Under the pieces are notes generated by a model that saw only the letters and a program-made list of their open reading frames with translations, made no database searches and had not been told where the DNA came from. DNA of 32,068 bases from assembly GCA_015233145.1 (NCBI GenBank), contig JADFYI010000014.1, positions 1 through 32,068 on the forward strand, written 5' to 3'. This document shows positions 13,631 through 29,898 of this stretch, piece after piece (position 1 is the first letter of the stretch; the number at the start of each line of letters is the position of its first letter). A program made the translations under genes and the position numbers. Source of the stretch: Candidatus Omnitrophota bacterium (GTDB lineage Bacteria > Omnitrophota > Gorgyraeia > Zapsychrales > Fredricksoniimonadaceae).

Positions 13631-14647
13631 ATGAGAATAAGAAGATTATTTATTTTTGTAATGACTTTTGTTTTGGGAGTGGCCTTGATCGCTCCGGCGA
13701 TGGCCGAAGGCAAGGTCACGCTGCTTAACGTCTCTTATGACCCGACACGCGAGTTCTATCAGGGGTTTAACAAGGCCTTTTGTGACCATTGGCTCAAGGA
13801 AACAGGCACAACGGTTGAGGTCAACCAGTCTCATGGCGGCAGCGGCAAACAGGCCCGCGCTGTCATTGATGGGCTTGAGGCCGATGTTGTGACCCTGGCT
13901 CTGGCCTATGACATTGACGCTATTGCCCAGAAGACCAGCCTTATCCCCAAGGATTGGCAGGCAAGGCTTGCGTATAACAGCGCGCCCTACACCTCCACCA
14001 TTGTTTTTCTGGTGCGCAAGGGGAACCCCAAGAATATTAAAGACTGGGATGATCTTGTGAAACCCGGCGTTGCTGTGATTACGCCGAATCCAAAGACCTC
14101 TGGCGGCGCCCGCTGGAATTATCTTGCGGCCTGGGGTTACGCGCTCAAGAAATGGAATAACGATGATAATAAGGCCAGGGAGTTTGTGACCGCCCTTTTT
14201 AAAAACGTGCCGGTCCTTGATTCCGGTGCGCGCGGTTCGACCACAACATTCGTTGAGCGCAAGATCGGGGATGTGCTTATTGCCTGGGAGAATGAGGCGT
14301 ATCTTGTGGTGAAGCAATTGGCCCAGGGAGAGTATGAGATTGTCACGCCGTCTTTAAGCATTCTTGCGGAGCCGTCAATCGCTTTGGTTGACGGTAATGT
14401 TGACCGCCACGCTACGCGCAAGGTGGCCCAGGCTTATCTGGAATACCTGTATTCTCCCGAAGGCCAGGAGATCGCGGCTAAAAATTATTACCGTCCCCGC
14501 CTGAAAGCGGTTGCGGATAAGTATGTTTCACAGTTCCAGAAGGTGGAGTTGATCACGATTGATGAGGTCTTTGGCGGCTGGCAGAAAGCGCAGAAGACTC
14601 ATTTTGCGGATCAAGGGACCTTTGATCAAATCTATCAAGTAAATTGA
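13631..14647 (+). CDS. sbp: Sulfate-binding periplasmic protein of ABC importer
   Basis: A 338-residue periplasmic solute-binding protein. A signal peptide of about 25 residues ends at APAMA-EG. The mature part starts [19 protein letters not shown] and contains [20 protein letters not shown] and the later [24 protein letters not shown], all typical of the Sbp/CysP sulfate/thiosulfate family. It captures sulfate and hands it to CysT/CysW. The gene is followed by a heptamer-repeat element and then the two permease genes and the ATPase, completing the importer. Sulfate import could serve assimilation or dissimilatory sulfur metabolism; no reductase genes are in the window. Confidence 0.95.
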
Positions 14648-14649
14648 GG

Positions 14650-14744
14650 AGCTATCAGCTTTCAGCTATCAGCCTTCAGCTTTGCAGGACAATTAGCGCT
14701 AATTATCCTACTGCTGATGGCTGACAGCCGATAGCTGACAGCTA
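14650..14744. repeat. Heptamer inverted-repeat element with palindromic core (copy 1)
   Basis: The left arm is built from AGCTATC/AGCTTTC-like heptamers (14650-14684), the core is AGGACAATTAGCGCTAATTATCCT-like (14686-14709, central AATTAGCGCTAATT perfectly palindromic), and the right arm is the complementary heptamers (CTGATGG CTGACAG CCGATAG CTGACAG). The whole element folds as one large imperfect hairpin filling the sbp-cysT gap. Confidence 0.85.
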
Positions 14745-14749
14745 GATAT

Positions 14750-15586
14750 ATGTCAAGACACTTCGTCAAACAAAGCATCCTACCCGGATTCTCGCTCTCT
14801 TTGGGGTTCACGATATTTTATCTGAGCCTTATCGTTTTAATTCCATTATCCATGATTTTTTTTAAGACCGCTTCCATGGGGTTTCCTGATTTTGTTCATG
14901 TCATCACTGCGCCGCGCACCCTGGCCGCTTACCGGTTGAGTTTTGGGACCGCGTTTGTGAGCGCGTGCATCAATGCCGTGTTCGGAGTCATTGTCGCGTG
15001 GGTTCTGGTGCGCTATTCTTTTCCGGGGAAAAGAATTGTTGACGCGCTGGTTGATTTTCCGTTAGCCCTTCCGACGGCTGTTGCAGGTATCGCGCTGACC
15101 GAACTCTATACGCCCACAGGATGGGTTGGGCAATATTTACAGGCCGCAGGGATCAAGGGCGCGTTCACTCCTTTTGGCATCACTATCGCGCTCACCTTTA
15201 TTGGCCTGCCGTTTGTGGTCAGGACCATTCAGCCGGTCTTGGAGGATATTGACCCCCAGATCGAAGAAGCCGCAGCCTCTTTGGGAGCCAACCGCTGGCA
15301 GACACTCACAAAGGTCATTTTTCCGGTGATCGTTCCGGCAGTTTTGACAGGAGTGACCCTGGCCTTTGCCAGGGGCATTGGCGAATACGGTTCAGTCATT
15401 TTTATTGCCGGGAACATGCCCATGAAGACCGAGATCGCGCCGCTTCTTATCATGACCAAACTCGAACAGTATGACTACACGGGCGCAACAGCCATTGCCA
15501 TCGGCATGCTCGTGATTTCATTTTTGCTTTTAGCGGCCGCGAATTTTTTTCAGTGGTTAACGTCCAGGAATTTAGGGAAAGCGTAG
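14750..15586 (+). CDS. cysT: Sulfate ABC transporter permease CysT
   Basis: A 278-residue inner-membrane permease with six predicted helices. The ABC permease EAA loop reads EEAAASLGANRWQTLTKVIF (about residues 172-191), and the end GEYGSVIFIAGNMPMKTEIA is characteristic of CysT/CysU. Together with CysW it forms the sulfate channel energised by CysA. The first start codon after the repeat element is ATG 14750; no strong ribosome-binding site is present because the repeat runs to within a few bases. CysW follows after 7 bases. Confidence 0.95.
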   Translation: MSRHFVKQSILPGFSLSLGFTIFYLSLIVLIPLSMIFFKTASMGFPDFVHVITAPRTLAAYRLSFGTAFVSACINAVFGVIVAWVLVRYSFPGKRIVDALVDFPLALPTAVAGIALTELYTPTGWVGQYLQAAGIKGAFTPFGITIALTFIGLPFVVRTIQPVLEDIDPQIEEAAASLGANRWQTLTKVIFPVIVPAVLTGVTLAFARGIGEYGSVIFIAGNMPMKTEIAPLLIMTKLEQYDYTGATAIAIGMLVISFLLLAAANFFQWLTSRNLGKA

Positions 15587-15593
15587 GGATATC

Positions 15594-16418
15594 ATGAGTG
15601 CGCGTACAGAACCCAGGATTGTCAGGTATTTTTTGATCTCGATAGCCCTGGCTTTTTTTGGCCTTTTTATTGTTCTGCCCCTGATTTGCGTTTTTCATAA
15701 TGCGTTTGCCAAGGGCTGGGTATTTTACCTGAAGACCTTGGAGCAGCCGGATGCGCTCGCGGCCATGAAAATGACCCTGATTGCGGCTGCCGTGGCTGTG
15801 CCTCTTAATTTGATATTCGGGGTGGCTGCCTCCTGGGCAATCGCCAAGTTTGAGTTTAAAGGCAAGGGGCTTCTTTTGTCGCTCATTGACCTTCCGCTTT
15901 CCGTGTCGCCCGTGATCGCGGGGCTTATTTTTATCCTGCTATTCGGCGCACAGGGGTTTTTAGGGCCTTGGCTCATTGCGCATAATATCCGGATCATTTT
16001 TGCCATGCCGGGGATTATTTTGGCCACAATTTTTGTCACATTTCCCATGGTTGCCCGCGAGCTTATTCCTGTCATGAAATCGCAGGGTAATGAAGAAGAA
16101 GAAGCGGCCATCACCCTGGGCGCCAGCGGGTGGAAAACGTTTTGGATGATTTCAGTCCCCAATATTCGCTGGGGGATTCTGTATGGAATCATCCTGTGCA
16201 ATGCGCGTGCCATGGGGGAGTTTGGTGCGGTCTCGGTAGTCTCTGGCCATATCCGGGGGCTCACAAATACCTTACCGTTACACGTTGAGATTTTGTATAA
16301 CGAATATCAATCCGCCGCAGCCTTTGCCACAGCATCGGTCCTGGCGCTTTTGGCCATTATCACCTTGATTGCCAAAAGTGCGGTCGAGGCGACCATTCGA
16401 CAGGGGCAGCGGCAGTAA
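15594..16418 (+). CDS. cysW: Sulfate ABC transporter permease CysW
   Basis: A 274-residue inner-membrane permease, partner of CysT. Its EAA loop is EEEEAAITLGASGWKTFWMI, and the C-terminal stretch ARAMGEFGAVSVVSGHIRG followed by LPLHVEILYNEY is the usual CysW signature. Five to six membrane helices are evident. GTAGGGAT before ATG 15594 can act as ribosome-binding site. It is separated from cysA by a short core-less heptamer repeat (16426-16479). The two permeases plus Sbp and CysA make a complete importer. Confidence 0.95.
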   Translation: MSARTEPRIVRYFLISIALAFFGLFIVLPLICVFHNAFAKGWVFYLKTLEQPDALAAMKMTLIAAAVAVPLNLIFGVAASWAIAKFEFKGKGLLLSLIDLPLSVSPVIAGLIFILLFGAQGFLGPWLIAHNIRIIFAMPGIILATIFVTFPMVARELIPVMKSQGNEEEEAAITLGASGWKTFWMISVPNIRWGILYGIILCNARAMGEFGAVSVVSGHIRGLTNTLPLHVEILYNEYQSAAAFATASVLALLAIITLIAKSAVEATIRQGQRQ

Positions 16419-16425
16419 AAATGCA

Positions 16426-16479
16426 GAGCTGACAGCTGAAAGCTGACGGCTGATAGCTTCTTTGCTGAAAGCAGAAAGC
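16426..16479. repeat. Heptamer repeat element, core-less (copy 2)
   Basis: Runs of AGCTGACAGCTGAAAGCTGA type heptamers fill the gap between cysW and cysA. It resembles the right arm of the other copies and lacks the AATTAGCGCTAATT core and a full left arm. Confidence 0.8.
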
Positions 16480-16483
16480 ACAT

Positions 16484-17551
16484 ATGGGTATCGAGTTAAA
16501 AAATGTATACAAAAAATTCGGCGACTTCAAGGCTTTGGATGATGTGAGCCTCAAGGTCGATGACGGCGAATTGCTGGCGCTGTTAGGGCCTTCCGGTTCT
16601 GGAAAAACCACGCTGTTGCGCGTTGTTGCGGGCCTTGATTTTTTTGATGAAGGCCAGGTCCTTTTCAGCGGCCGCGACGCGCAGAATCAGAAGGCGCGTG
16701 AGCGCGGGGTCGGGTTTGTTTTTCAGCATTATGCCCTTTTCCGGCACATGACGGTTTTTGATAATATCGCTTTTGGGCTGAACGTTCAGCCGCGCAAAAC
16801 ACGGCCTTCACGCCAGGAGATCAGGGCCAAGGTCATGGAGCTCTTGAAACTGGTCCAGCTCGAGTGGCTGGCTGAGCGTTACCCCTGGCAGCTCTCCGGC
16901 GGCCAGCGCCAGAGGATTGCGCTCGCAAGGGCCCTGGCGGTTCGGCCCAAAGTCCTTCTCCTCGATGAGCCGTTCGGGTCGCTGGACGCTCAAGTCAGGA
17001 AAGAACTTCGTGCCTGGTTAAGGCGTTTTCATGACGAGTTTCATATCACAACCATTTTTGTCACCCATGACCAGGAAGAGGCCCTGGAGGTTGCAGACCG
17101 GATTGTGGTCATGAATAAAGGCAGGATTGAACAGGCCGGAACTCCCGAGGATGTTTATCATAATCCGGTCAATGCCTTTGTCCTCAGTTTTTTGGGGAAT
17201 GTCAATTTTTTCCACTGCCGGCTGGAAGAGGGAAAGGCTGTGATCGGCAACACCACCCTGGAGGTCCCTGGCTTGTCTGTCGACAAGCCGCAGCCAGCCA
17301 AGCTGTATGTGCGTCCGAATCAGTTCAAGGTCTCTCGGGTCTTTTCAAAGGCAGCGTTCAAGGCTGTTGTTGAGTACGTGAATCCGGCCGGGACCATTGT
17401 GAAGATTAACCTCAAAACCGAGTCAGGCGAGCGGATCTATGTGGAAATAACTCAGGAAGAGCTGAAACAGCTTAAGATCCGAAAGCAGGAAAAGGTTTAT
17501 GTGAGCCTCAAGGACGTTTCTTATTCAGAATATGTCAAAGATAATTCGTAG
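16484..17551 (+). CDS. cysA: Sulfate ABC transporter ATP-binding protein CysA
   Basis: A 355-residue cytoplasmic ATPase. Walker A is GPSGSGKTT (residues 35-43), the ABC signature is [15 protein letters not shown], Walker B is [16 protein letters not shown] and the switch His is in [10 protein letters not shown]. The C-terminal third (from about residue 235) is the regulatory TOBE-type domain of the CysA/MalK group ([13 protein letters not shown]). It powers the importer formed by CysT and CysW. The gene ends directly in another heptamer element, which separates it from the signalling genes. Confidence 0.95.
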
Positions 17552-17619: not shown

Positions 17620-19482
17620 ATGTACCAGAAAATATTATACATTTTGACCCTGGCAACAGCAGTTGTTCTTCTGTTATGCGGCTCCTGGTTCCATGCCTTT
17701 GAGAAAAATGAGCTCGACACACTGGATTTGAGATTCCATCTGCGCCCAACGATCGCCAGAACCGACAAGGTTGTTATCATTGAGATTGATAACAACACCA
17801 TCAAAAAGATCGGCCAGTTTCCTTTTCACCGCGGTTATCATGCCAAACTCATTGATGCCCTTTCCGGCGCTGGCGCAAGGGCCGTTGTCTTTGATATTTT
17901 CTTCAGCGAACCCCAGAAAGGTGATGCCGACCTTTTGGCAGCCATGCGCGCGGCAGGGAATGTTTATCTGCCTTATGTTTTTGAACTGGCCCCTTATGAG
18001 GGCCGCGGGATGGCCCATGCTGTCAAATATTCCGCACAAAACCTTCCAGAGCTCACAAGCGCTGCCAAAGCCACAGGGTATATCAATGTCATTGCTGATG
18101 CTGATGGGAAATTCAGGAGGGTGCCGCCTTACGTCCAATATGAAGGCAGGAAATATCCGGCCATGGCCCTTTTGCTCAGTTCAGATTATCTGGCAACAGA
18201 CTTGAGCCATCAAAAAATACCGCTTGATGAGAACGCGAACCTGATTATTAATTTTGCAGGCAAGTGGGTGGATGCGTATCAGCATTATTCTTTTGGCGAT
18301 ATTCTGCAATCCTATGAGGCGTTGTCCAAGGGGAAAAAACCTGTGCTGGATTTAAATATTTTTAAAGACAAGGTCTGCCTTGTCGGATATACGGCCGATG
18401 GGACCACAGACCTGCATCCGAGCCCGCTGGAGCCGCTGTATCCTTCCATCGGGATTCACGCGGATATTTTCAATTCCATCCTGTATAAGAAATTTATTAC
18501 CCAGGCCTCCAGGGGGATAAACCTGGTTATTCTTATTGGCCTCTCGTTATTGATCCTGGCCTCCTCGCTCAAGGCCGCGCCCTTGCAGGCCTTTGGGCTT
18601 CTTGTGGAGATCAATGCTGTTTTTTTGCTCGTGAGCGTCACGTTTTTTAACAGGCTTGGCGTCTGGGTGGATGTGTTCTATCCTCTTTTGGTCACAACCC
18701 TTTTGTATCTTTTCTGCACGCTCTACAGGTCTATTCTTCACTTCAAGGAACGGATCACTCTGGAAAGCGAACTGAAAATTGCCAAACAAATCCAGGAAAG
18801 CTTTGTGCCAAAGGCCTTGCCGGAAGTCAATGAAATTGACATCGCGGCCACCATGCTCACAGCCCGTGAGGTTGGGGGCGACCTTTACGATGTCATTAAA
18901 TTCGATAATAACAAGGTCGGCATCATGATTGGGGATGTGATGGGCAAGGGCATCCCGGCCAGCCTTTTTATGGCCATGGCCGCAACGTCCTTCAAGTTTT
19001 TTGCCAAGCCAGAGATCCTTCCAAACCAGACATTATTGGATTTGAATGAAAAGATCATCCGCGAAACTCCGTCTGACCGTTTTGTCACGCTTTATTACAG
19101 CCTGTTTGACTTTAAAAATCGCGTCATGTTTTATGCGAATGGCGGGCATTTGCCTGTCTTGTACCTGGCCAGAGGTGAGAAAGCCCTCAGCCTTGATGTT
19201 GATGACGGCCTGCCTTTGGGCATGATGAAGGGCCCTTATTCAGGCCGTGAGATAAAATTTGACCGCGGAGACATCTTTATCTATTATACGGACGGCATTA
19301 TTGAGGCAAAAAACGCCAGGTCAGAAATGTATGGTGTTCTCAGGCTCTCCGCTTTTGTAGAAATGAACAGGAGCCTCACGGCAAAGGAATTGCGCGACGG
19401 TGTGGTCAATGATGTGATGAAATTCCTGGGCAAACAAAAGCCCCAGGATGATATTACCCTTATCACTATTAAGGTTGTCTAA
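17620..19482 (+). CDS. CHASE2-SpoIIE/PP2C-type serine phosphatase (membrane sensor)
   Basis: A 620-residue membrane protein. After an N-terminal helix (about residues 3-20), a CHASE2 extracytoplasmic sensor domain spans about 30-290 (TDKVVIIEIDNNTIKKIGQF, RAVVFDIFFSEP, GRKYPAMALL, DKVCLVGYTADGTTDLHPSP). Three further helices (about 295-375) lead through a short coiled-coil linker (RITLESELKIAKQIQESFVP) into a PP2C/SpoIIE phosphatase domain (about 400-620) with metal-binding Asp421 in EVGGDLYDV and Asp439 in IGDVMGKGIPASL, plus YANGGHLPVLY and YYTDGIIEAK. Such phosphatases dephosphorylate STAS anti-anti-sigma proteins in response to a periplasmic signal. The adjacent STAS gene (AAGGAGG spacing, 13 bases downstream) is its probable substrate. 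Confidence 0.92.
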   Translation: MYQKILYILTLATAVVLLLCGSWFHAFEKNELDTLDLRFHLRPTIARTDKVVIIEIDNNTIKKIGQFPFHRGYHAKLIDALSGAGARAVVFDIFFSEPQKGDADLLAAMRAAGNVYLPYVFELAPYEGRGMAHAVKYSAQNLPELTSAAKATGYINVIADADGKFRRVPPYVQYEGRKYPAMALLLSSDYLATDLSHQKIPLDENANLIINFAGKWVDAYQHYSFGDILQSYEALSKGKKPVLDLNIFKDKVCLVGYTADGTTDLHPSPLEPLYPSIGIHADIFNSILYKKFITQASRGINLVILIGLSLLILASSLKAAPLQAFGLLVEINAVFLLVSVTFFNRLGVWVDVFYPLLVTTLLYLFCTLYRSILHFKERITLESELKIAKQIQESFVPKALPEVNEIDIAATMLTAREVGGDLYDVIKFDNNKVGIMIGDVMGKGIPASLFMAMAATSFKFFAKPEILPNQTLLDLNEKIIRETPSDRFVTLYYSLFDFKNRVMFYANGGHLPVLYLARGEKALSLDVDDGLPLGMMKGPYSGREIKFDRGDIFIYYTDGIIEAKNARSEMYGVLRLSAFVEMNRSLTAKELRDGVVNDVMKFLGKQKPQDDITLITIKVV

Positions 19483-19495
19483 GGAGGAAGCAATA

Positions 19496-19828
19496 ATGGA
19501 TATCAAGGTCGAGAAGATCAATGATATTGCGCTTGTCACACTGTCCGGTGAGCTAAACATGGACAATTCCAATACCTTGCGCGAGGCCTTTAAGAAGATT
19601 TTAAAAGAAATGAATACAAAGGTCTTGGTGGATTTTGAAAAGCTTTCTTTTATTGACAGTTCGGGGATAGCGACGCTTATCGAGATGTTCCAGAACCTTG
19701 AGAAGGTTAAGGGGCGCCTATGCCTGTGTCAGGTTAATAAAAGAATTATTGGAATTTTTGAGATCACAAAAGTCCACAAACTTTTCGGCATATTTGAGAA
19801 CCGACAAGAGGCTTTAAGGAGTTTTTAA
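19496..19828 (+). CDS. STAS-domain anti-sigma factor antagonist (copy 1)
   Basis: A 110-residue SpoIIAA/RsbV-like STAS protein. The conserved phosphorylation loop is LSFIDSSGIATLIE with Ser55/Ser56, and the N-terminal strand is IALVTLSGELNMDNS. In partner switching such proteins bind the anti-sigma kinase when dephosphorylated. ATG 19496 is preceded by AAGGAGGAAG and fits the family start; longer in-frame extensions enter the phosphatase gene. It is a close paralogue of the STAS protein at 22624, with the same length and same ending (EALRSF). It lies directly before mlaE, so it could instead or also play the MlaB role, a STAS subunit of the Mla ABC transporter. Confidence 0.92.
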   Translation: MDIKVEKINDIALVTLSGELNMDNSNTLREAFKKILKEMNTKVLVDFEKLSFIDSSGIATLIEMFQNLEKVKGRLCLCQVNKRIIGIFEITKVHKLFGIFENRQEALRSF

Positions 19829-19830
19829 AG

Positions 19831-20652
19831 ATGAGCGAGCAGCGCGGGTTTTCCATTTTCAAGAAATCAGAAGAGATCGGCACCCTTGTTTTGAGCGCTT
19901 GGCGTGTGTTTACGGAAGGCGCGGGCCTTTTTTTAGAAACGCTTTATTGGATTTTTATCGGCCCCTTTAAGGGCAAGAGTGTTGATTTCAAGGCGCTTTT
20001 CCAGCAAATGGTTTTCATGGGGTACGAATCGGTCAAGATCGTGTTTTTTGTCACTTTTTTTACCGGCATTGTGTTGGCCATGCAGTCAGCGCATCAGTTA
20101 AGCAAGATGGGCGGAACTATTTATGTGGCGAGCCTTGTGACAATTTCGCTTTGCCGCGAGCTGGGCCCGGTTTTGACAGCCCTGGTCCTGGCCGGGCGTA
20201 TCGGGGCTTCAATCACTGCAGAGATAGGGTCCATGAAGGTCAACGAACAGATTGAAGCGCTCGACACCATGGGGATCAATCCGGTCCGCTATCTGGTTGT
20301 CCCAAAGTTCTTGGCGCTATTGTTCATGCTGCCGATTTTGACGGTCTTAGGGGACGCCTCAGGGATGCTGGGCGGTTACATGATCGGCGTTTATAATTTA
20401 AAAATCAATGCCGGGCTTTATGTGCAGACAGCGTTTAAATTCTTGACGATCAAGGATATTTACACCGGCCTTTCCAAAAGTTTGGTTTTTGCCATCATCA
20501 TCACCATGGTAGGGGTTTATCAGGGGTTAAAAACCAATGGCGGCGCGGTCGGGGTTGGCCGGGCCACAACGATCAGTGTGGTGGTCAGTTTTATCATGAT
20601 CATCCTTGCCGATTGTGTCATGACTGGAATTTATTTTTTTGTGAAGATGTGA
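19831..20652 (+). CDS. mlaE: MlaE-type ABC transporter permease (lipid transport)
   Basis: A 273-residue inner-membrane permease of the MlaE/YrbE family. Typical segments are TFFTGIVLAMQSAHQLSKMG, SLCRELGPVLTALVLAGRIG, ITAEIGSMKVNEQIEALDTM and INPVRYLVVPKFLALLFMLP, which form the reentrant and EAA-like core. With MlaF and MlaD it moves phospholipids or other lipids between inner and outer membranes, implying a Gram-negative envelope. It starts 2 bases after the STAS stop and ends 1 base before mlaF, a tight operon. The N-terminal 40 residues are an amphipathic extension. Confidence 0.94.
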   Translation: MSEQRGFSIFKKSEEIGTLVLSAWRVFTEGAGLFLETLYWIFIGPFKGKSVDFKALFQQMVFMGYESVKIVFFVTFFTGIVLAMQSAHQLSKMGGTIYVASLVTISLCRELGPVLTALVLAGRIGASITAEIGSMKVNEQIEALDTMGINPVRYLVVPKFLALLFMLPILTVLGDASGMLGGYMIGVYNLKINAGLYVQTAFKFLTIKDIYTGLSKSLVFAIIITMVGVYQGLKTNGGAVGVGRATTISVVVSFIMIILADCVMTGIYFFVKM

Positions 20653-20653
20653 T

Positions 20654-21421
20654 ATGGCCAATTCATCCGATATTATTCTTTCTGTCCGCCAAATCGAGAA
20701 GACTTATCACGGCCGCCGTGTGCTCGAGAATGTGTCCTTTGACGTGCGCCGAGGCGAGGTTTTTGTCATCATGGGCGGTTCAGGCTGCGGAAAAAGCACA
20801 ATGCTGAGGATCATGGCCGGCGGGGTGCCGCCGACTTCAGGCAAGGTTTTTTTTAACGGCCAGGATATGAGCGCTGTCAAAGGTGAGGCGCGGGAAAAAA
20901 TCCGCCGGCGCTTTGGCATGAGTTTCCAGTCTGCCGCGCTTCTGGATTACCTGACTGTGGAGGAAAACGTCAGTTTGCCGATCAAGGAGCACACCAGGCT
21001 CGCGGCCAATATTATCAGCATCATGGCGCAGACGAAATTGAACTTAGTGGGCCTTCAGGGGTTTGCCAAATTCCTGCCGGATGAGCTTTCCGGCGGCATG
21101 CGCAAGCGCGCCGGCCTGGCCCGGGCCATTGCCATGGACCCGGAGATCGTTTTTTATGATGAGCCGACAGCAGGCCTCGATCCGGTTGTTTGCGCGGTCG
21201 TAGACCAGTTAATCCTGGACTTGACCAAAAAACTTCAGATTACCTCCATTGTTGTCACGCATAATATGGAAAGCGTGTTTCGGATTGCTGACCGCGTGGC
21301 CATGCTTTATCAAGGCCGGCTTTTGCAGGTTGGCACGGCTGAGGAGATTAAAAATACGGCTGACCCTGTTGTCCAGCAGTTTATCCGCGGCAACATTGAA
21401 GGCCCGATTCAGATGTCATAA
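20654..21421 (+). CDS. mlaF: MlaF-type ABC transporter ATP-binding protein
   Basis: A 255-residue cytoplasmic ATPase. Walker A is GGSGCGKST (about residues 40-48), the signature is LSGGMRKRAGLARAIA, Walker B is EIVFYDEPTAGLDPVV and the switch His is in VVTHNMESV. The GGMRKR signature variant is typical for the MlaF/Ttg2A group. It energises the lipid transporter with MlaE. The C-terminus (IEGPIQMS) is close to the end of standard family members. mlaD follows after about 20 bases. Confidence 0.95.
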   Translation: MANSSDIILSVRQIEKTYHGRRVLENVSFDVRRGEVFVIMGGSGCGKSTMLRIMAGGVPPTSGKVFFNGQDMSAVKGEAREKIRRRFGMSFQSAALLDYLTVEENVSLPIKEHTRLAANIISIMAQTKLNLVGLQGFAKFLPDELSGGMRKRAGLARAIAMDPEIVFYDEPTAGLDPVVCAVVDQLILDLTKKLQITSIVVTHNMESVFRIADRVAMLYQGRLLQVGTAEEIKNTADPVVQQFIRGNIEGPIQMS

Positions 21422-21441
21422 TTTGAAAAAAAGGAATGGGT

Positions 21442-22170
21442 ATGCGGATTAATAATGAGACAAAAATCGGGTTAATGGTGATTGTGGGTGCTGTTATTTT
21501 GCTCGGCATCACGGTCAAGGCCGGAAATTTTAAATTCAAGAAAGACGGCTACCGGATTGTAACAGCTTTTAATGATATTGACGGCGTCAGCCGTAACTCG
21601 CCGGTCATGCTCAATGGGCTGGAAATTGGGGTTGTGGAGGATATCCAGATTAAATACGGGCCAGACCAGACGGCCATGGAATTGACATTATGGCTGAATA
21701 ATACAGCGAAGCTCAAAGACGGGGCCAGGGCCATGATCAAGAACCTTGGGTTTATGGGCGAAAAATACATTGCCCTCACAGCGGGTGACCCGCACGCCGC
21801 GTATCTTCAGCCAGGAGCCACAATCCCTGGCCAGGCGCCAATAGATTTTAATCAGCTGATGAACGATGGCCATGAATTTTTGGGCAAAGCCAATGAAATC
21901 GCTTCCAATATCGATCAGCGCTTAAAAACGAATCAAAAGAACATTGACGATAGCCTGGCCAATCTTAACGTGACCATGACGCATATGTCGTCTTTGACAG
22001 AGCATCTCGACAAGATTGTGTCTGTGCATGAAGCTAATATTGATAACATTTTAACCAATTTCGATGCCATGTCGCTTCATTTGAAGGGCGCTTCGGGCAA
22101 TCTGGAAGAGATGTCGGCTGATCTCAAAAGAAATCCATGGAAGCTCTTGTTCCGTGCCAAGGAAAAATAG
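21442..22170 (+). CDS. mlaD: MlaD-type MCE-domain lipid-binding protein
   Basis: A 242-residue protein with an N-terminal membrane anchor (about residues 8-26, KIGLMVIVGAVILLGITV). An MCE domain follows (about 35-115: YRIVTAFNDIDGVSRNSPVM, LNGLEIGVVEDIQI, KNLGFMGEKYIALTAG), then a long helical region ending near the C-terminus. MCE proteins form hexameric lipid-binding rings on the periplasmic face of the inner membrane. The start at ATG 21442 is preferred over ATG 21436 because AAGGA lies 6-7 bases before it. It completes the MlaEFD transporter; MlaB would be supplied by one of the STAS genes, while MlaC and MlaA homologues are not in the window. Confidence 0.93.
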   Translation: MRINNETKIGLMVIVGAVILLGITVKAGNFKFKKDGYRIVTAFNDIDGVSRNSPVMLNGLEIGVVEDIQIKYGPDQTAMELTLWLNNTAKLKDGARAMIKNLGFMGEKYIALTAGDPHAAYLQPGATIPGQAPIDFNQLMNDGHEFLGKANEIASNIDQRLKTNQKNIDDSLANLNVTMTHMSSLTEHLDKIVSVHEANIDNILTNFDAMSLHLKGASGNLEEMSADLKRNPWKLLFRAKEK

Positions 22171-22200
22171 TGGCCACAAGCGGAATAATATAAAGGAAAT

Positions 22201-22611
22201 ATGACTGTTACAAAGATTGTTGATGATAATATCCCTTCAAAACTGGACCTTGTTCCAGGGTTTATCACTGCAGTTCTTGAGAAGTTGCAGGTTTTACATC
22301 TGGATGAGGATGAGGTTTTTGCCTTAAAGCTTTGCCTGTATGAAGCCCTTGTGAATGCCATTAAGCATGGTAATAAAGAGAAGAGCGATCAGGCGGTGCA
22401 TGTTATTGTCAAAACAAATAAGAAAAAAATCATCCTGGAGGTGACAGATCAGGGCCATGGCTTTGATTTTACCAGGATCCCCAACCCGACCACAGAAGAA
22501 AATATCGGGAAGTTTCATGGCCGGGGCGTGTATTTGATCCAGAATTCAATGGATTCTGTTAAGTTTCTTAACGGAGGGCGGACCATTCAAATGGTCAAGG
22601 TGATAAAGTAG
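22201..22611 (+). CDS. RsbW/SpoIIAB-like anti-sigma ATPase (serine kinase)
   Basis: A 136-residue GHKL-ATPase of the anti-sigma kinase type. The N box is LYEALVNAIKHGNK (about residues 48-61), the G1 box VTDQGHGFDF and the G2 region GKFHGRGVYLIQNSMD. Such proteins hold a sigma factor or other target inactive and phosphorylate a STAS partner. It sits between mlaD and the second STAS gene and 12 bases before the latter, which together with the SpoIIE phosphatase makes a complete partner-switching module. No sigma factor is encoded in the window, so the target is either elsewhere or not a sigma factor. Confidence 0.92.
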   Translation: MTVTKIVDDNIPSKLDLVPGFITAVLEKLQVLHLDEDEVFALKLCLYEALVNAIKHGNKEKSDQAVHVIVKTNKKKIILEVTDQGHGFDFTRIPNPTTEENIGKFHGRGVYLIQNSMDSVKFLNGGRTIQMVKVIK

Positions 22612-22623
22612 GAGGCAGTGAAA

Positions 22624-22956
22624 GTGGAAATCAGTCTTGAAAAAATTAACGACATTACGCTCGTTTCTTTGAACGGCGAGCTGAATCTGGATAATACCCA
22701 CCGGGTTCGGGAGGCGTTTAAGAAGATATTAAAACAGAGGAAGGCCAAGGTCCTGCTTGATTTTGATAATGTTCCTTTTATTGACAGTTCCGGGATTGCC
22801 CTCCTTATCGAGATTGTCCAGGCTTTTGGGAAAAGCAATGGCGCCATGTGCTTGTGCCATGTGAACAAAAAGATCCTTTCTGTCTTTGAGATCACGAAAG
22901 TCAGCAAGTTATTCAACATTTTTGACAGTCATGAAGAAGCATTAAGGAGTTTTTAA
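22624..22956 (+). CDS. STAS-domain anti-sigma factor antagonist (copy 2)
   Basis: A 110-residue STAS protein closely related to the one at 19496: MEISLEKINDITLVSLNGEL aligns with MDIKVEKINDIALVTLSGEL, and the phosphorylation loop PFIDSSGIALLIE has Ser55/Ser56. GTG 22624 is selected because it aligns exactly with the paralogue's start and is 8 bases after GGAGG; GTG 22618 would be only 2 bases from it. It is the likely phosphorylation substrate of the RsbW-like ATPase directly upstream. Two STAS copies suggest one serves the sigma-type switch and the other the lipid transporter, but which is which cannot be seen. Confidence 0.92.
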   Translation: MEISLEKINDITLVSLNGELNLDNTHRVREAFKKILKQRKAKVLLDFDNVPFIDSSGIALLIEIVQAFGKSNGAMCLCHVNKKILSVFEITKVSKLFNIFDSHEEALRSF

Positions 22957-22957
22957 G

Positions 22958-23728
22958 ATGACACAGGAGAAAAAGTCAACAGAGCAGCAGGCCCATGACC
23001 TTCTTGCGGAAGAGAAGTACCAGGACGCGGCAGAATTGTATCTTCAGGCAGCCAAAGGTTTTCAAAGGCAGGAAAAGCATGACCGGGCCGCAATCTGCCT
23101 GGCGGCTTCGGCCAGCAGCCGTGCGCTCATATTGGGAGAAAGGACATTTCATCGTGTGGCCTCTCTTTATGAGGAAGCAGCCCAGGAGGCAGAAACGGCC
23201 AAAGACCTTGAGTATGCCTCCATGCTCTACAAATATGCCGCGATTGCTTATGAAAGGGATAATGATAATAATGCCTTATCAGAGTGTTTTTTCAAGTCCA
23301 GGGAGGCGTACCGGAGGTTTCTGATCCAGGACTTGTTCCATATTGAAAGGGCCAAGGGCAATACCTGGATTGGGCTTAACTTCAGGCAAATTGGAAAAAG
23401 GATTGTTCCTCTTATCACAGCAACCATTGCTTCTCTTTTATGGGGGCATGGTGAGCGGCCTCAGCGGATCATTCTTTTTGGCCTGGGCCTGATTCTTATC
23501 TTTGCGTTATTTTATATGCATGGACATTTGAGCAAGGATAATATTGCTATTAAGCCGAGTTTTATCCAGGCCGCTTATTTCAGTTTTACGGCTTATACAA
23601 AAGTGGGGACTGAGAACATGAGCCCTATCGGATTCAATAAAGTGATTGCTCTTATTGAAACGTTCATCGGTATTTTCACGATTCCGCTTTACTTGACTGG
23701 GCTTTGCCGTAAGTATTTGAGGTACTAA
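22958..23728 (+). CDS. TPR-like protein fused to a pore-loop (Ion_trans_2-like) membrane domain
   Basis: A 256-residue protein. Residues 1-130 are helical repeats of the TPR/alpha-SNAP sort (AEEKYQDAAELYLQAAKGFQ, RVASLYEEAAQEAETAKDLE, YASMLYKYAAIAYERDNDNN). Then come two membrane helices (about 138-158 and 163-184), a pore-loop-like stretch FSFTAYTKVGTENMSPIG (about 200-217) and a last helix (about 220-245). The second half resembles two-TM potassium channels, whose filter reads T-x-V/T-G-Y-G-D; here it reads TKVGTEN, so selectivity is probably altered or conduction lost. It begins 1 base after the STAS gene and ends the signalling operon. Function is unknown. Confidence 0.75.
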   Translation: MTQEKKSTEQQAHDLLAEEKYQDAAELYLQAAKGFQRQEKHDRAAICLAASASSRALILGERTFHRVASLYEEAAQEAETAKDLEYASMLYKYAAIAYERDNDNNALSECFFKSREAYRRFLIQDLFHIERAKGNTWIGLNFRQIGKRIVPLITATIASLLWGHGERPQRIILFGLGLILIFALFYMHGHLSKDNIAIKPSFIQAAYFSFTAYTKVGTENMSPIGFNKVIALIETFIGIFTIPLYLTGLCRKYLRY

Positions 23729-23848: not shown

Positions 23849-24823
23849 ATGAAATCAACGTTTTCAACAATTTCAAACAATAAGAAATCAAAAGGCCTCA
23901 AAGAATATTATGAGGTGAGGTCTTTTTTTGGGACCAGTGTCTGGATCCATTGTTTTTATGATGTTGGGGCTGATATTGCCCAGGCAACCAGGGCGTGCTG
24001 GCAAAAAGCAGAGCGCATACAGTCTTACATGAATGTGTATGACGAGGCCCGGGAAGGCAACTTAAGCTGGCTCAACAGGGCTGGATATCAGGGTGTCCGG
24101 GTTGAGGAAGATATCTTTAAAGTCCTCAAACATGCCATGGAGTATTCACGGCTGACAGGCGGGGCGTATGATGTGACAATATTTCCGCTCGTCCAGTTGT
24201 GGAAAAACGCGGCCCAATCCGGGCAACTTCCGGAAAAGGACCTGTTGGCACGTGTCAAAGATTTGGTGGGTTATCAGCATGTTCTTTTGCAGGAGCCTGA
24301 TCTTGTGTTTTTTATGAAAAAAGGCATGATGGTGGATTTGGGGTCACCGGCATCGGGGTATTTTTGTGATGAGGCGGCCTTGATTCTTAATGCCCATAAT
24401 ATCAGGCATTTCATGGTGGATGGTGGCGGTGAGATTTTCTGCCATGGAAAAGATAAGGGCGAAAGCCCCTGGCGTGTAGGTGTCCAGGACCCCTTTGATA
24501 AGGCCAGGATACTGATGGATATCGAATTAGAAGATAAGGGCATTTCCACTTCCGGGAATTATGAAAAGTTTTCAACCATTGGCACTGAAAAGTTTGCGCA
24601 TATTATTGATCCCAAAACCGGTTATCCGCAAAAGCAGGCCGCCAGCGTGACCGTGATTGCCAAAACAACCCAGGCCGCTAATGAACTTTCAACCGCGTTA
24701 TGCGTGATGGGAGGGCGGAAGGGCCTTGGGTTTGTGCGTTCGCTTAAAGATGTTGAAGCCTTAATCATTGAAAATGATAATGATAAAATTGTTGAATATC
24801 GAACGGGCGCATTTCAAAAATAA
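23849..24823 (+). CDS. apbE: ApbE-family FAD:protein FMN transferase, apparently cytoplasmic
   Basis: A 324-residue ApbE-like protein. ApbE transfers FMN from FAD to Thr/Ser of flavoproteins such as Nqr/Rnf subunits or FMN-binding-domain proteins. Family stretches seen are YMNVYDEAREGNLSWLNRAG, TGGAYDVTIFPLVQLW, MMVDLGSPASGYFCDEAALI, HFMVDGGGEIFCHG, GISTSGNYEKF and AHIIDPKTGYPQ. Unlike most ApbE proteins it has no signal peptide or lipobox, and the usual VDLGGIAKGYAVD reads VDLGSPASGYFCD, so a conserved Lys is absent. It stands alone between a repeat element and the third magnetosome operon. It could flavinylate a redox protein serving the NapH-like proteins, but no FMN-acceptor protein is visible here. 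Confidence 0.88.
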   Translation: MKSTFSTISNNKKSKGLKEYYEVRSFFGTSVWIHCFYDVGADIAQATRACWQKAERIQSYMNVYDEAREGNLSWLNRAGYQGVRVEEDIFKVLKHAMEYSRLTGGAYDVTIFPLVQLWKNAAQSGQLPEKDLLARVKDLVGYQHVLLQEPDLVFFMKKGMMVDLGSPASGYFCDEAALILNAHNIRHFMVDGGGEIFCHGKDKGESPWRVGVQDPFDKARILMDIELEDKGISTSGNYEKFSTIGTEKFAHIIDPKTGYPQKQAASVTVIAKTTQAANELSTALCVMGGRKGLGFVRSLKDVEALIIENDNDKIVEYRTGAFQK

Positions 24824-25990: not shown

Positions 25991-26004
25991 GCCGCGGAGT
26001 GGAT

Positions 26005-27393
26005 ATGCCGGAAGAAAATAAACCGGAAGATGTTAAAGACGAATTTTGTAACCAGCCCATAGGCCCCTGGATCATTGGCGTGGTTGCCCTTTCGGTCATG
26101 TCAGTTTTTTGGGTCGTGATGAAGCGGGATGATATTCTTCAAGGGGTTGGCGAGGTAGAGCCGCCCAAGGTCAAACTGCCCATTCCCGGTGAACCTTCTT
26201 TCCCCAAAGGCGTTATTCCTGCGGCCATGCCGGTGGTCCAGGCAGACCCGAATTACAAGGTCGCTGGCATTACCAAGGCCACACCCAATGGCGGCATGCA
26301 GCTTGTGGCCAACCAGACCAATACTGGTTTTCAGGATTCCTTGAAGTATGCTGTTAACGCTATTATTCCTTCCGTGTGCGATGTGCATGCCCGCCATGTT
26401 GTCCGGACACCTGTCAGGCGGCAGGCTGTTGATGCCCAGAATATGCAGTTTGTCCCTCCTTTTAGCGGCGTTATTGATAAATTTATTGAAAATAAGGGTT
26501 TTGAAAATATTGGCGCAGGCATCATTGTTGATGAGCGCGGGTATGTTTTGACCAATTCCCACGTGACATTTGAAGCAACTGATATTGTTGTCACGGTTTT
26601 TGGAACGCCAGCCCGTGATTACCATGCCGACCTGGTGGCGCAGGATCCCAATACAGACTTGGCTATTCTTAAGCTCAGGGCTGACGGCCCGTTTCCTGAA
26701 GCCACAATAGGCGATTCCAGTTTTACCCAGATCGGTGATTATGTCATTGCTGTCGGCAGCCCTTTTGGCATTGAACAGACCGTGACGAGCGGCATTGTGA
26801 GCGGCATACGCAAGTCTGTTGTCATTGAAAGTGTGCAGTATAAAAATCTTTTTCAGACAGACACGCCCATCAACCGCGGCTCATCCGGCGGCCCTTTGGT
26901 CAACCTTAAAGGGGAGGTCATTGGCGTCAGCACTGCGATCTACGCACCCACAGGTGTTTTTAGCGGCACTGGCTTTGCTATTCCCATTAATGATTGTAAA
27001 AATTTTCTTTCCAAAAACCTGGGCAAGAACTATTCGTTCCCTGTGGATAAAAAAGGGATGCTGGCCGCGCCTGTGATTGATATCCAAAATGTCAAAAGAT
27101 CTCCGGTTCCGATTCGCTTTGGTCTTGAGGTTATGCCCATGGATTCTGTTATTGCCCAGCAATTCGGGCTCAGGGACCGCCAGGGCGTTTTGGTCAACAG
27201 GGTCATGGATGGCTCACCGGCTGATGTGGCCGGTATCCAGCGCGGAGATGTTATTATTTCGGTGGCTGGCATCACAATTACGGATAAAGATGAAATTCCG
27301 AAAGTTGTTGCGAATTTCAGGGCTGGGGAGAATGTGAATGTGCGTTTCCTGAGAAATGGCAAGATTGATGAAGTGCTGGTGAGGCTGCAATGA
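26005..27393 (+). CDS. mamE: MamE-like HtrA serine protease with PDZ, lacking magnetochromes
   Basis: A 462-residue membrane-anchored trypsin-like protease. One membrane helix (about residues 20-40, PWIIGVVALSVMSVFWVVMK) is followed by a linker and a protease domain (about 110-345) with an intact triad: His186 (LTNSHVTF), Asp218 (NTDLAILKL) and Ser294 (NRGSSGGPL; the usual GNSGG Asn is Ser). One C-terminal PDZ domain (about 375-460) contains GVLVNRVMDGSPADVAGIQR. MamE processes magnetosome proteins and switches on crystal growth. Magnetospirillum MamE has CxxCH haem motifs, which are absent here; the haems are on separate proteins. ATG 26005 is chosen over GTG 25999 because GGAG is then 5 bases upstream. 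It overlaps the next start by ATGA. Confidence 0.82.
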   Translation: MPEENKPEDVKDEFCNQPIGPWIIGVVALSVMSVFWVVMKRDDILQGVGEVEPPKVKLPIPGEPSFPKGVIPAAMPVVQADPNYKVAGITKATPNGGMQLVANQTNTGFQDSLKYAVNAIIPSVCDVHARHVVRTPVRRQAVDAQNMQFVPPFSGVIDKFIENKGFENIGAGIIVDERGYVLTNSHVTFEATDIVVTVFGTPARDYHADLVAQDPNTDLAILKLRADGPFPEATIGDSSFTQIGDYVIAVGSPFGIEQTVTSGIVSGIRKSVVIESVQYKNLFQTDTPINRGSSGGPLVNLKGEVIGVSTAIYAPTGVFSGTGFAIPINDCKNFLSKNLGKNYSFPVDKKGMLAAPVIDIQNVKRSPVPIRFGLEVMPMDSVIAQQFGLRDRQGVLVNRVMDGSPADVAGIQRGDVIISVAGITITDKDEIPKVVANFRAGENVNVRFLRNGKIDEVLVRLQ

Positions 27394-27980
27394 AAAAGAA
27401 ACCGACATCAACGGTTGTCTATGAAAAATTTTTGAAACAGGTCAAAGAGTTTGCTGTGGCCCAGCCCGTGCTCTTTTTCGGGCTCCTGGTTGCGGCCGTG
27501 ATTTTTATGTTCTGGTTTATTTCTTCGCTGGAGATTTTACCTGAGGCCCGGGAGCCAAGGGCTGTGCAAAGAGGTGTTGTCATTGAAAAAGGCGATAGCG
27601 CGCTGTGGCTCGGCATGGAAGTGGCGCAGGTCTCACGGACGATCAGGAAGGATTTTAAAATCCCTGGCAACATCAAGGGCATGTTTGTTGTCAATGAGGG
27701 CAAAGAATTGGCCTTGAAATACGGCGTCAAGACAGGGGATGTCATCACCTCCATCAGCCGTAAACCCGTGAGAACATCCGCAGAGTTTATCAAGGTGGTT
27801 AATGGCGTTCAATTCCGCGAAGGGATCCTTTTGGAAATTTTTCGGGATGGGAAGAGTTTTTATCTGACTATTCCTTTTGAGTATCAGTACGGCCCGCTCA
27901 TGGGGCCGAACAGGGGAAGCTGGCAGCTCGGGTCACCGCTCATGGGACAGGGCATCCAGTACGGACCGGTATTTAGATAA
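27390..27980 (+). CDS. Membrane-anchored PDZ protein following MamE
   Basis: A 196-residue protein: an N-terminal cytoplasmic segment, a membrane helix (about residues 26-46, PVLFFGLLVAAVIFMFWFIS), a PDZ domain (about 70-165) and a Gly/Met/Pro-rich tail (YGPLMGPNRGSWQLGSPLMG). The PDZ opens with ALWLGMEVAQVSRTIRKDF and has the loop LALKYGVKTGDVITSISRK. No CxxCH is present. The opening strand and the layout match the PDZ proteins at 9419 and 29899. ATG 27390 overlaps the mamE stop, so it may be a partner or adaptor of MamE. The tail resembles a MamP-like linker without its haems. Confidence 0.82.
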   Translation: MKKKPTSTVVYEKFLKQVKEFAVAQPVLFFGLLVAAVIFMFWFISSLEILPEAREPRAVQRGVVIEKGDSALWLGMEVAQVSRTIRKDFKIPGNIKGMFVVNEGKELALKYGVKTGDVITSISRKPVRTSAEFIKVVNGVQFREGILLEIFRDGKSFYLTIPFEYQYGPLMGPNRGSWQLGSPLMGQGIQYGPVFR

Positions 27981-28062
27981 AGCTTTCAGCTGTCAGCTAT
28001 CAGCTGTCAGCTTTGAAGGGCAATTAGCGCTAATTGTCCTACCGCTGAAAGCTGAAAGCTAG
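27981..28062. repeat. Heptamer inverted-repeat element with palindromic core (copy 5)
   Basis: AGCTTTC AGCTGTC AGCTATC AGCTGTC left arm, core GGGCAATTAGCGCTAATTGT-CC (28018-28039, palindromic except the outer pair) and right arm CCGCTGAAAGCTGAAAGCT. The core differs from copies 1 and 4 by compensatory-looking changes (GGAC/ATCC versus GGGC/GTCC flanks). It begins directly after the stop of the PDZ gene. Confidence 0.85.
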
Positions 28063-28100
28063 TAGGGCGTTAATTAAATTTTTTTAATGAGGAGACTGAA

Positions 28101-29546: not shown

Positions 29547-29609
29547 GCTTTCAGATGTCAGCTATCAGCTGACAGCTGCTGAAAGCTGAAGGCTGAGAGC
29601 CGAAAGCTC
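29547..29609. repeat. Heptamer inverted-repeat element, core-less (copy 6)
   Basis: GCTTTCAGATGTCAGCTATC left arm and CTGACAGCTGCTGAAAGCTG-type right arm form an imperfect hairpin directly after the stop of the fusion protein. No AATTAGCGCTAATT core. Confidence 0.8.
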
Positions 29610-29628
29610 AAAAAAAGGAGTGAGTGTT

Positions 29629-29889
29629 ATGGTTAAGCCAATAGTTTGCACACATTGTAACGGTGAAATGCAGCAGTATTCAGGGCCTCGCTACAACCGC
29701 AGGGCCGCAGGGTTTTTTATCATCGGCGGTATCTTTGCCACGCTTTTTTGGATCGGCGCGGTTCTGGGTATCCCGCTCATTGTGATTGGCCTTTATATGC
29801 TTGGATCAAAACGCGATCTTTGGGTCTGCAAAGACTGCAATACGGCACTTGAACGGTTTAATATCGATTCCCAAAAGCTTGGAAAATAG
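29629..29889 (+). CDS. Zinc-ribbon membrane protein split by two helices
   Basis: An 86-residue protein with a CxxC pair at each end (Cys7/Cys10 in VCTHCNGEM and Cys67/Cys70 in VCKDCNTAL) and a hydrophobic hairpin between them (about residues 28-58, FFIIGGIFATLF and LGIPLIVIGLYMLG). Folding as a helical hairpin would bring the two pairs together as one zinc-ribbon-like site on the cytoplasmic side. ATG 29629 is chosen because AAGGAG lies 8 bases upstream; the GTG at 29620 overlaps that site. It sits between two magnetochrome genes and ends 9 bases before the next. No named family recognised. Confidence 0.78.
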   Translation: MVKPIVCTHCNGEMQQYSGPRYNRRAAGFFIIGGIFATLFWIGAVLGIPLIVIGLYMLGSKRDLWVCKDCNTALERFNIDSQKLGK

Positions 29890-29898
29890 CGGAGCCTT

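Follow-up and report, generated by a model that had tools for sequence, protein, structure and literature searches.

Within the window analysed here, a stretch of 32,068 nucleotides from an Omnitrophota bacterium, eight consecutive plus-strand genes interleave a partner-switching set with an Mla lipid transporter (Table 1), which raises the question of what the kinase, the phosphatase and the two STAS proteins control at this locus. The reading we favour, which we hold a little likelier to be right than wrong, is that STAS acts as a phospho-switched MlaB-like subunit, which RsbW would phosphorylate and CHASE2-SpoIIE would dephosphorylate, thereby gating lipid transport. The module in the window would then be a remodelled version of one that occurs across Omnitrophota.

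Every gene of the cassette (17620-23728) scored above the Pfam cut-off, which bears out the order given in the initial annotation (CHASE2-SpoIIE, STAS, MlaE, MlaF, MlaD, RsbW, STAS, TPR/pore protein), as well as its short gaps of 1-30 bases (13, 2, 1, 14, 30, 6 and 1, in that order). The cassette continues into the ApbE gene at 23849. The phosphatase sequence contains the metal-binding Asp motifs of a SpoIIE/PPM catalytic domain (GGDLYD, GDVMGKG and DDITL). The RsbW-type kinase has an intact N-box and glycine boxes, with E48, N52, G85, G87, G107 and G109 invariant among its relatives; the genome contains no other full match to this kinase type. The three protein classes, the DSSG phospho-site and the folds are those of the Bacillus SpoIIAB-SpoIIAA-SpoIIE and RsbW-RsbV-RsbU systems; in contrast to these, the phosphatase of the module bears a CHASE2 sensor, no sigma gene was found beside the module and its usual neighbour in the phylum is a lipid transporter. 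Likewise, a cognate sigma gene in the same locus, as at sigma-B and sigma-F loci, was not found among the window genes scanned, in agreement with the initial annotation, and the sigma genes of the genome lie on other contigs. On the transporter side, the window encodes the components that define Mla, namely MlaE, MlaF and a MlaD with a single MCE domain, together with a linked STAS, as in E. coli MlaFEDB with its MlaB. Unlike in E. coli, the STAS is of the longer SpoIIAA type with serine in place of threonine, a kinase and a phosphatase are linked, the MlaF of the window is tail-less and no homologue of the periplasmic E. coli MlaC (PF05494) was found in this 80% complete genome. STAS domains also regulate SLC26/SulP transporters (PMC7367683); there the domain lies within the permease itself, whereas the module encodes its STAS as a protein of its own, linked to kinase and phosphatase genes.

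Table 1. The partner-switching/Mla cassette and flanking genes of the window.
Feature	Position	Strand	Evidence
Sulfate/molybdate-type ABC importer (binding protein, CysT, CysW, CysA), 5' of SpoIIE	13631..17551	+	ORFs; synteny
CHASE2-SpoIIE, membrane sensor with PPM-type Ser/Thr phosphatase	17620..19482	+	Pfam CHASE2 1.4e-53, SpoIIE 6.6e-47
STAS1, adjoins MlaE	19496..19828 (ATG 19496)	+	Pfam STAS 3.9e-22
MlaE permease	19831..20652	+	Pfam MlaE 1.4e-76
MlaF ATPase, operon-type helical subdomain, without C-terminal extension	20654..21421	+	Pfam ABC_tran; best PDB matches are MlaF structures
MlaD, one MCE domain and C-terminal region of ~125 aa	21436..22170	+	Pfam MlaD 4.3e-17, residues 37-117 of 244
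RsbW/SpoIIAB-type kinase homologue	22201..22611	+	HATPase_c_2 1.5e-23
STAS2, adjoins RsbW	22618..22956 (GTG 22618)	+	Pfam STAS 2.8e-22
TPR plus two-TM pore protein	22958..23728	+	TPR-like; Ion_trans_2 1.8e-6
ApbE family protein, usual cassette neighbour in magnetosome clusters	23849..24823	+	Pfam ApbE 4.1e-71; synteny
MamE-like protease, PDZ protein, magnetochrome protein, small protein, MamP-like	25999..31071	+	Pfam Trypsin_2/PDZ/MCR; MamP NCBIfam 1e-63, below equivalog cut-off

The search for the same gene order in other genomes, proposed in the initial annotation, found it across Omnitrophota. RsbW-STAS-MlaE was present in 105 out of 149 RsbW loci read, covering 26 family-level groups, and the full order RsbW-STAS-MlaE-MlaF-MlaD in 97, with SpoIIE next in 63; median gaps were 11-36 bases, overlaps were frequent and the CHASE2-SpoIIE architecture recurred in operons of distant families. 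By our estimate, chance would place roughly 0.3% of RsbW genes at such a short distance from a MlaE gene, and the observed linkage is far above that. Among the best 73 non-Omnitrophota RsbW loci, the order was found in none. Moreover, STAS adjoined MlaE only where RsbW did too (4/4 versus 0/26). The pore protein was seen in the operon in several loci where the sequence was read far enough: L342, L343, L344 and L350 have the order RsbW-STAS-MlaE-MlaF-MlaD-(FecR-like, beta-barrel)-SpoIIE-TPR/pore, with both middle genes read in three of the four, and L351 has the same order without them. Relatives with unlinked gene sets, which the initial annotation would have counted against gating of lipid transport by STAS phosphorylation, do exist, but in most of the phylum the sets are linked. 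That Mla is very often encoded with its own kinase, phosphatase and switch protein suggests that lipid traffic in Omnitrophota may be toggled by phosphorylation.

The phosphorylatable Ser of DSSG was kept by the operon STAS in 104 out of 105 loci. At its C-terminus the operon STAS is of the long SpoIIAA type and does not match the minimal MlaB form, which lacks the last strand and helix; the window STASs can be aligned with SpoIIAA through this C-terminal part and, as expected of a MlaB-type protein, are encoded with MlaE and MlaF. In one locus (L282) an RsbW-STAS fusion, whose halves match SpoIIAB and SpoIIAA, lies directly 5' of MlaE. Its model (pLDDT 92.7, pTM 0.58), based on an alignment of 19 rows in which the stop separating the two genes was read through, is confident for both domains but not for their mutual placement; the STAS part has the fifth strand and last helix and superposes on SpoIIAA (1th8_B) with Z 19.6 and rmsd 1.4 over 111 residues. 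The window STASs align over an equal length. The two STASs of the window, described in the initial annotation as nearly identical, share 69 out of 112 residues (62%) and belong to different parts of the STAS tree: STAS1, with SpoIIAA proteins as its closest solved relatives, groups with other Mla-adjacent STASs, and STAS2 falls into a separate clade (support 98/98). They look specialised, one with Mla and the other with RsbW and the channel. The predicted phospho-sites are Ser55 of STAS1, the first Ser of DSSG counted from ATG 19496, and Ser57 of STAS2, counted from GTG 22618.

Housekeeping MlaFs end GPITEDENLVFGHVK, most operon MlaFs like GPIKFFQQKDDYLEQLTK. In the latter, a Tyr and a Leu are spaced as are Tyr261 and Leu265 of E. 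coli, two residues that dock into the interface between MlaF and MlaB. Across the phylum, ~78 out of 100 linked MlaFs carry this MlaB-gripping C-terminal extension, and STAS-less Mla copies have a MlaF without it. In the MlaB-binding subdomain, 98-100 out of 100 operon MlaFs have hydrophobic residues at positions 123/124/127, versus 0 out of 19 housekeeping ones, and both MlaB-contacting elements of E. coli MlaF, tail and subdomain, are common to most operon MlaFs elsewhere in the phylum. The MlaF of the window has lost the tail (it ends GPIQMS), which is missing from all operon-type MlaFs inspected in its order. Six operon-type MlaFs in this order have no adjoining STAS, and in five of these cases the genome lacks free-standing STAS proteins altogether; thus, the transporter can exist without STAS. 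In E. coli, removal of the tail abolishes function, with MlaB binding retained.

The proposed module would comprise the RsbW kinase, the STAS switch, MlaE-MlaF-MlaD, the CHASE2-SpoIIE phosphatase and the TPR/K+-channel-like protein, and in its common form the single STAS protein would have two jobs. In its unphosphorylated state, STAS would attach to the helical subdomain of MlaF in the manner of MlaB and keep the ATPase on the transporter. Phosphorylation by RsbW of the DSSG serine, which corresponds in position to Thr52 of MlaB at the interface with MlaF, would loosen this grip, and CHASE2-SpoIIE would dephosphorylate STAS upon an extracytoplasmic signal, so that partner switching would gate lipid transport instead of acting via a sigma factor. 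Phosphorylation of MlaB was proposed before (Thong 2016, Kolich 2020). E. coli MlaB Thr52Glu weakens MlaF binding, but Thr52Ala still binds and is inactive, which disagrees with simple phospho-regulation. Covariation (MI with APC) among RsbW, STAS, MlaE, MlaF and MlaD over 97 loci gave similar scores for all pairs, with a slight RsbW-STAS excess, indicating that phylogeny swamps the signal.

The gene content of the window marks it in its entirety as a magnetosome gene cluster, and the Mla/partner-switching set sits inside it. Magnetochrome proteins are encoded at 9902, 28101 and 29899 (MCR above cut-off) and MamP-like, MamE-like, MamA-like and MamB/M-like CDF genes are present, MamP, MamA and MamB/M being among the best NCBIfam names for window genes, below equivalog cut-offs. 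The surroundings of the module thus share MamA, MamB/M, MamE, MamP and magnetochrome homologues with the magnetosome clusters of deep-branching magnetotactic bacteria. The sulfate/molybdate-type importer is part of the conserved block and precedes SpoIIE with an identical gene order in L045, L046 and L301. Neither the magnetosome context nor the phylum-wide operon figured in the initial annotation, and we found no description of a partner-switching cassette or Mla transporter in magnetosome clusters in the open-licence literature. In the lineage of the window, the module would have joined the magnetosome cluster and its STAS been duplicated, STAS1 staying with Mla and STAS2 with RsbW and the channel protein. 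The channel reading of the latter follows from the Pfam match and the filter of its relatives: the K+-channel filter is degenerate in the window (TKVGTENMSP) and intact (TVGYGD/TVGFGD) in most relatives read outside magnetosome clusters. Its structure model (pLDDT 79.5) retrieved TPR and Kir/Kv pore chains in a fold search, none at E below 0.001.

Control of lipid transport has to be weighed against other arrangements. STAS1 could be a constitutive MlaB-like subunit and RsbW, STAS2 and SpoIIE a separate switch on the TPR/pore channel or magnetosome functions, with Mla merely a neighbour. Such split roles, which we regard as rather unlikely, are in line with the retention of STAS1 and STAS2 as separate paralogues in several genera and with one genome (G027) where MlaE-MlaF-MlaD-STAS lies on one contig and SpoIIE-RsbW-STAS-TPR/pore-ApbE on another. 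Furthermore, several sister magnetosome clusters have the kinase-STAS-phosphatase cassette without adjoining Mla, ~10 cassettes that combine RsbW-STAS with the TPR/pore protein are not directly flanked by Mla and full-length TPR/pore proteins co-occur with RsbW in 44 out of 49 genomes (Fisher 7e-16, a value that ignores relatedness). Nevertheless, STAS1 has retained the DSSG motif, and in most of the phylum a single STAS lies between RsbW and MlaE and would thus have to serve both.

Less probable still is classical control of a sigma factor encoded elsewhere, with the mla genes just sharing the operon or regulon. RsbW and STAS are indeed closest to SpoIIAB/RsbW and SpoIIAA, and in most genomes of the order a second, region-3-containing sigma factor of ~285 aa is present. 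The latter was rejected as the cognate RsbW target since it is equally common in genomes without RsbW; the genome of the window (80% complete) yielded, apart from a truncated RpoD, no second sigma factor whose region 3 has the ordinary size. None of the 149 loci had a sigma factor nearby in an ECF-based scan, which could miss SigB/SigF types, and the MlaB-type MlaF tail, confined to these operons, would be left unexplained. Linkage without functional meaning, inherited from one ancestor, is very improbable. All genomes belong to one phylum and the loci are therefore not independent, and in G014 actin-like genes and a response regulator take the place of STAS-Mla, so the site accepts different inserts. 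However, gene order generally decays over such evolutionary distances, and here it persists over 26 families while RsbW scores drop from ~200 to 40 bits, accompanied by conservation of the DSSG motif and the MlaF tail. The phylum-level data (105/149 linkage, MlaF tail) argue strongly against chance neighbours. Gating of lipid transport by reversible STAS phosphorylation, as put forward in the initial annotation, thus gained strong comparative support across the phylum (conserved operon, near-invariant phospho-site, MlaF tail, no adjacent sigma factor found, RsbW-STAS fusion 5' of MlaE), but is weaker at this locus, with its tail-less MlaF, diverged STASs and sister cassettes without Mla.

The question of MlaB phosphorylation dates from 2016, and neither Thong 2016 nor Kolich 2020 names a kinase. 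More than 100 genomes encode Mla together with a kinase, a substrate-like STAS and a sensor phosphatase, which makes this question directly testable with purified proteins of one operon. If the phospho-switch holds, an ABC transporter would be controlled directly by partner switching, not through transcription. In magnetotactic Omnitrophota, the cassette may have been fixed in the magnetosome cluster and, in some, gate a dedicated Mla that supplies or remodels magnetosome-membrane lipid upon an extracytoplasmic signal; we consider this extension unlikely, and if it were true, the lipid supply of an organelle membrane would be phospho-switched. The regular place of the cassette in magnetosome clusters makes it a candidate signalling module for magnetosome biology.

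The eight genes initially annotated as partner-switching signalling interleaved with an Mla lipid transporter (CHASE2-SpoIIE phosphatase, STAS1, MlaE, MlaF, MlaD, RsbW-like kinase, STAS2 and a TPR/pore protein, STAS1 being the copy beside MlaE and STAS2 the copy beside RsbW) were confirmed in place on a single strand, each with Pfam support, and are separated by 13, 2, 1, 14, 30, 6 and 1 bases, in order. The best start of STAS1 places its predicted phospho-serine at Ser55, and that of STAS2 is Ser57, numbered from its GTG. The two STAS proteins, described as nearly identical, share only 62% identity (69/112). The window as a whole is an Omnitrophota magnetosome gene cluster with three magnetochrome proteins, a context absent from the initial annotation: MamA-like and MamB/M-like CDF genes and one magnetochrome gene lie upstream, and past the eight genes the block runs on with ApbE, an HTH protein and MamE-like, PDZ, magnetochrome and MamP-like genes. 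The Mam names derive from NCBIfam matches scoring below the equivalog cut-offs; the magnetochrome domain exceeds its Pfam cut-off. Directly upstream of SpoIIE lies a sulfate/molybdate-type ABC importer, a frequent member of the magnetosome-linked block. The window genome (1.8 Mb, 58 contigs) holds one full HATPase_c_2 gene, two MlaE genes and three STAS genes, the third within a SulP-sized open frame of 555 aa; MlaC was not found in this 80% complete assembly.

Positions of features in the window and in loci of other Omnitrophota genomes
Feature	Sequence	Position
Magnetosome gene cluster	window	1-32068
Sulfate/molybdate-type ABC importer	window	13631-17551
STAS1 start (ATG)	window	19496
STAS2 start (GTG)	window	22618
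TPR/pore gene, degenerate K+ filter	window	22958-23728
FecR-like and beta-barrel genes	L342	4094-5954
FecR-like and beta-barrel genes	L350	5198-7027
CHASE2-guanylate cyclase and GAF-SpoIIE	L223	2717-6001
Genes between SpoIIE and RsbW in G014	L046	12822-16056

The same gene order was then sought in other genomes. RsbW-type kinases were present in 145 of 384 Omnitrophota genomes (E <= 1e-12), and annotation of 149 loci (131 from the phylum, 17 from the window genome's own order, plus the window itself) used models derived from the window and its close relatives. RsbW-STAS-MlaE occurred at 105 of the 149, with full MlaE-MlaF-MlaD in 97 and SpoIIE next in 63 of these; MlaD lay upstream of RsbW-STAS at five further loci, including the window, and an RsbW-STAS fusion preceded MlaE at one. 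Linked loci cover 26 family-level groups by hand count, their operon gaps have medians of 11-36 bases with common overlaps, and the rough chance expectation for RsbW-MlaE linkage is 0.3% per locus. Among the 80 best RsbW loci of a named-genome collection, all of them close relatives, six of the seven from Omnitrophota and none of the other 73 had this order, which may still occur in further phyla. Longer stretches from four genomes read RsbW-STAS-MlaE-MlaF-MlaD, FecR-like and beta-barrel genes (or space for them), SpoIIE and TPR/pore; a fifth lacks the FecR-like and beta-barrel genes. Of the 384 genomes, 49 encode a full-length TPR/pore protein, and RsbW is present in 44 of these, counting genomes as independent. 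All eight genes initially annotated therefore belong to one phylum-wide module. In several operons MlaD and SpoIIE are separated by the FecR-like and outer-membrane beta-barrel pair, which might form the outer-membrane end of a transporter lacking MlaC. One distant family has CHASE2-guanylate cyclase and GAF-SpoIIE upstream of RsbW. Fusions in the phylum include RsbW-STAS, STAS-RsbW and RsbW-SpoIIE in either order (L282, L308, L038, L207, L218, L251, L267); because the L282 fusion retains a Met where its two halves meet, it may reflect a lost stop or an assembly error.

Several features bear on whether the STAS protein is an MlaB-like, phosphorylated subunit. The DSSG serine is present in 104 of 105 operon STASs (threonine in the other), and among 30 loci read in the order STAS adjoins MlaE in exactly the four with RsbW. 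In E. coli, Tyr261, Leu265 and Leu266 of the MlaF C-terminal extension sit in the MlaF-MlaB groove (PMC7367683). Tails of MlaFs from RsbW-STAS-MlaE operons share this spacing (e.g. GPIKFFQQKDDYLEQLTK), with Tyr and a hydrophobic residue in 72 of 100 by script, about six more by eye and a different hydrophobic tail in another 13; housekeeping MlaFs, from STAS-less Mla copies, end in GPITEDENLVFGHVK in the order. Hydrophobic residues occupy positions 123, 124 and 127 of the MlaB-binding helical subdomain in 98-100 of 100 operon MlaFs versus 0 of 19 housekeeping ones, and in the former alone the similarity to E. coli MlaF is greater here than in the rest of the protein. Since six operon-type MlaFs without adjacent STAS also keep the hydrophobic face, while their tail is absent, this signal is partly phylogenetic.

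At the window's own locus the strongest rival is a division of roles, STAS1 serving Mla and STAS2 serving RsbW and the channel. The STAS2 clade (window, L044, L043, L047, L045) is supported at 98/98, and the Mla-adjacent STAS1s (window, L044, L039 and the G027 STAS after MlaD) are set apart from it, their own grouping being weakly supported; a duplication that several genera have kept, each copy serving its own partner, fits this tree. The window MlaF carries I, M and T at positions 123, 124 and 127, is no closer to E. coli MlaF in the helical subdomain than elsewhere and ends in GPIQMS, the Tyr/Leu tail being gone from all operon-type MlaFs inspected in the order. In E. coli, tail removal abolished function and left MlaB binding in place. 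Control of a sigma factor by the RsbW kinase is less likely, because the distribution of a second region-3 sigma factor does not track RsbW. Apart from this question, very long open frames (3581, 2571 and 2143 aa) with several copies of sigma-70 regions 1.2, 2, 3 and 4 occur on two contigs of one genome (G000:C23, L055; G000:C32, L060), and similar frames with region 3 in G026:C20 (5044 aa) and G002:C167 (3915 aa).

Within the order, 9 of the 11 magnetochrome-bearing genomes have SpoIIE-RsbW-STAS or RsbW-STAS, against 0 of the 44 lacking the domain (Fisher 9e-9, genomes counted as independent); the cassette lies mostly on the same contig, upstream of mamE. In the phylum sample, a single contig also carries both RsbW and magnetochrome in each of G200, G228, G331 and G373; in two magnetochrome genomes from another order, the two are on different contigs. 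The usual block is CysTWA-SpoIIE-RsbW-STAS-TPR/pore-ApbE-HTH-MamE-PDZ-magnetochrome-MamP, with gaps in some assemblies. In the window and G030 this block encloses STAS-Mla, as it probably does in G028, where the contig ends in MlaD; in G023, MlaEFD is about 3 kb upstream of the block. The place of STAS-MlaE-MlaF-MlaD is taken in G014 by a response regulator, a small protein and two actin-like proteins. G026 has MlaEFD-RsbW-STAS, with a second STAS and TPR/pore together on a separate contig, and magnetochrome was not found there. The TPR/pore K+ filter (TVGYGD or TVGFGD) is intact in most relatives read outside magnetosome clusters (L350, L351, L342-L347) and degenerate in many magnetosome clusters.

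In the open-licence literature we found no paper joining MlaE with RsbW, or relevantly joining magnetosomes with SpoIIE, STAS or Mla, and Mla is absent from the main text of the 2023 Omnitrophota survey; as far as could be checked, the components are of known kinds and the combination is new. MlaB phosphorylation at Thr52 was suggested as possible by Thong 2016 and Kolich 2020, Thr52Glu binding MlaF more weakly and Thr52Ala binding it but being inactive. We infer a scheme in which unphosphorylated STAS would be bound to MlaF, phosphorylation by RsbW would release it and CHASE2-SpoIIE would return it; STAS-MlaF binding, phosphorylation, the direction of control and the signal are all putative. 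The operon is a source of candidate kinase and phosphatase genes.
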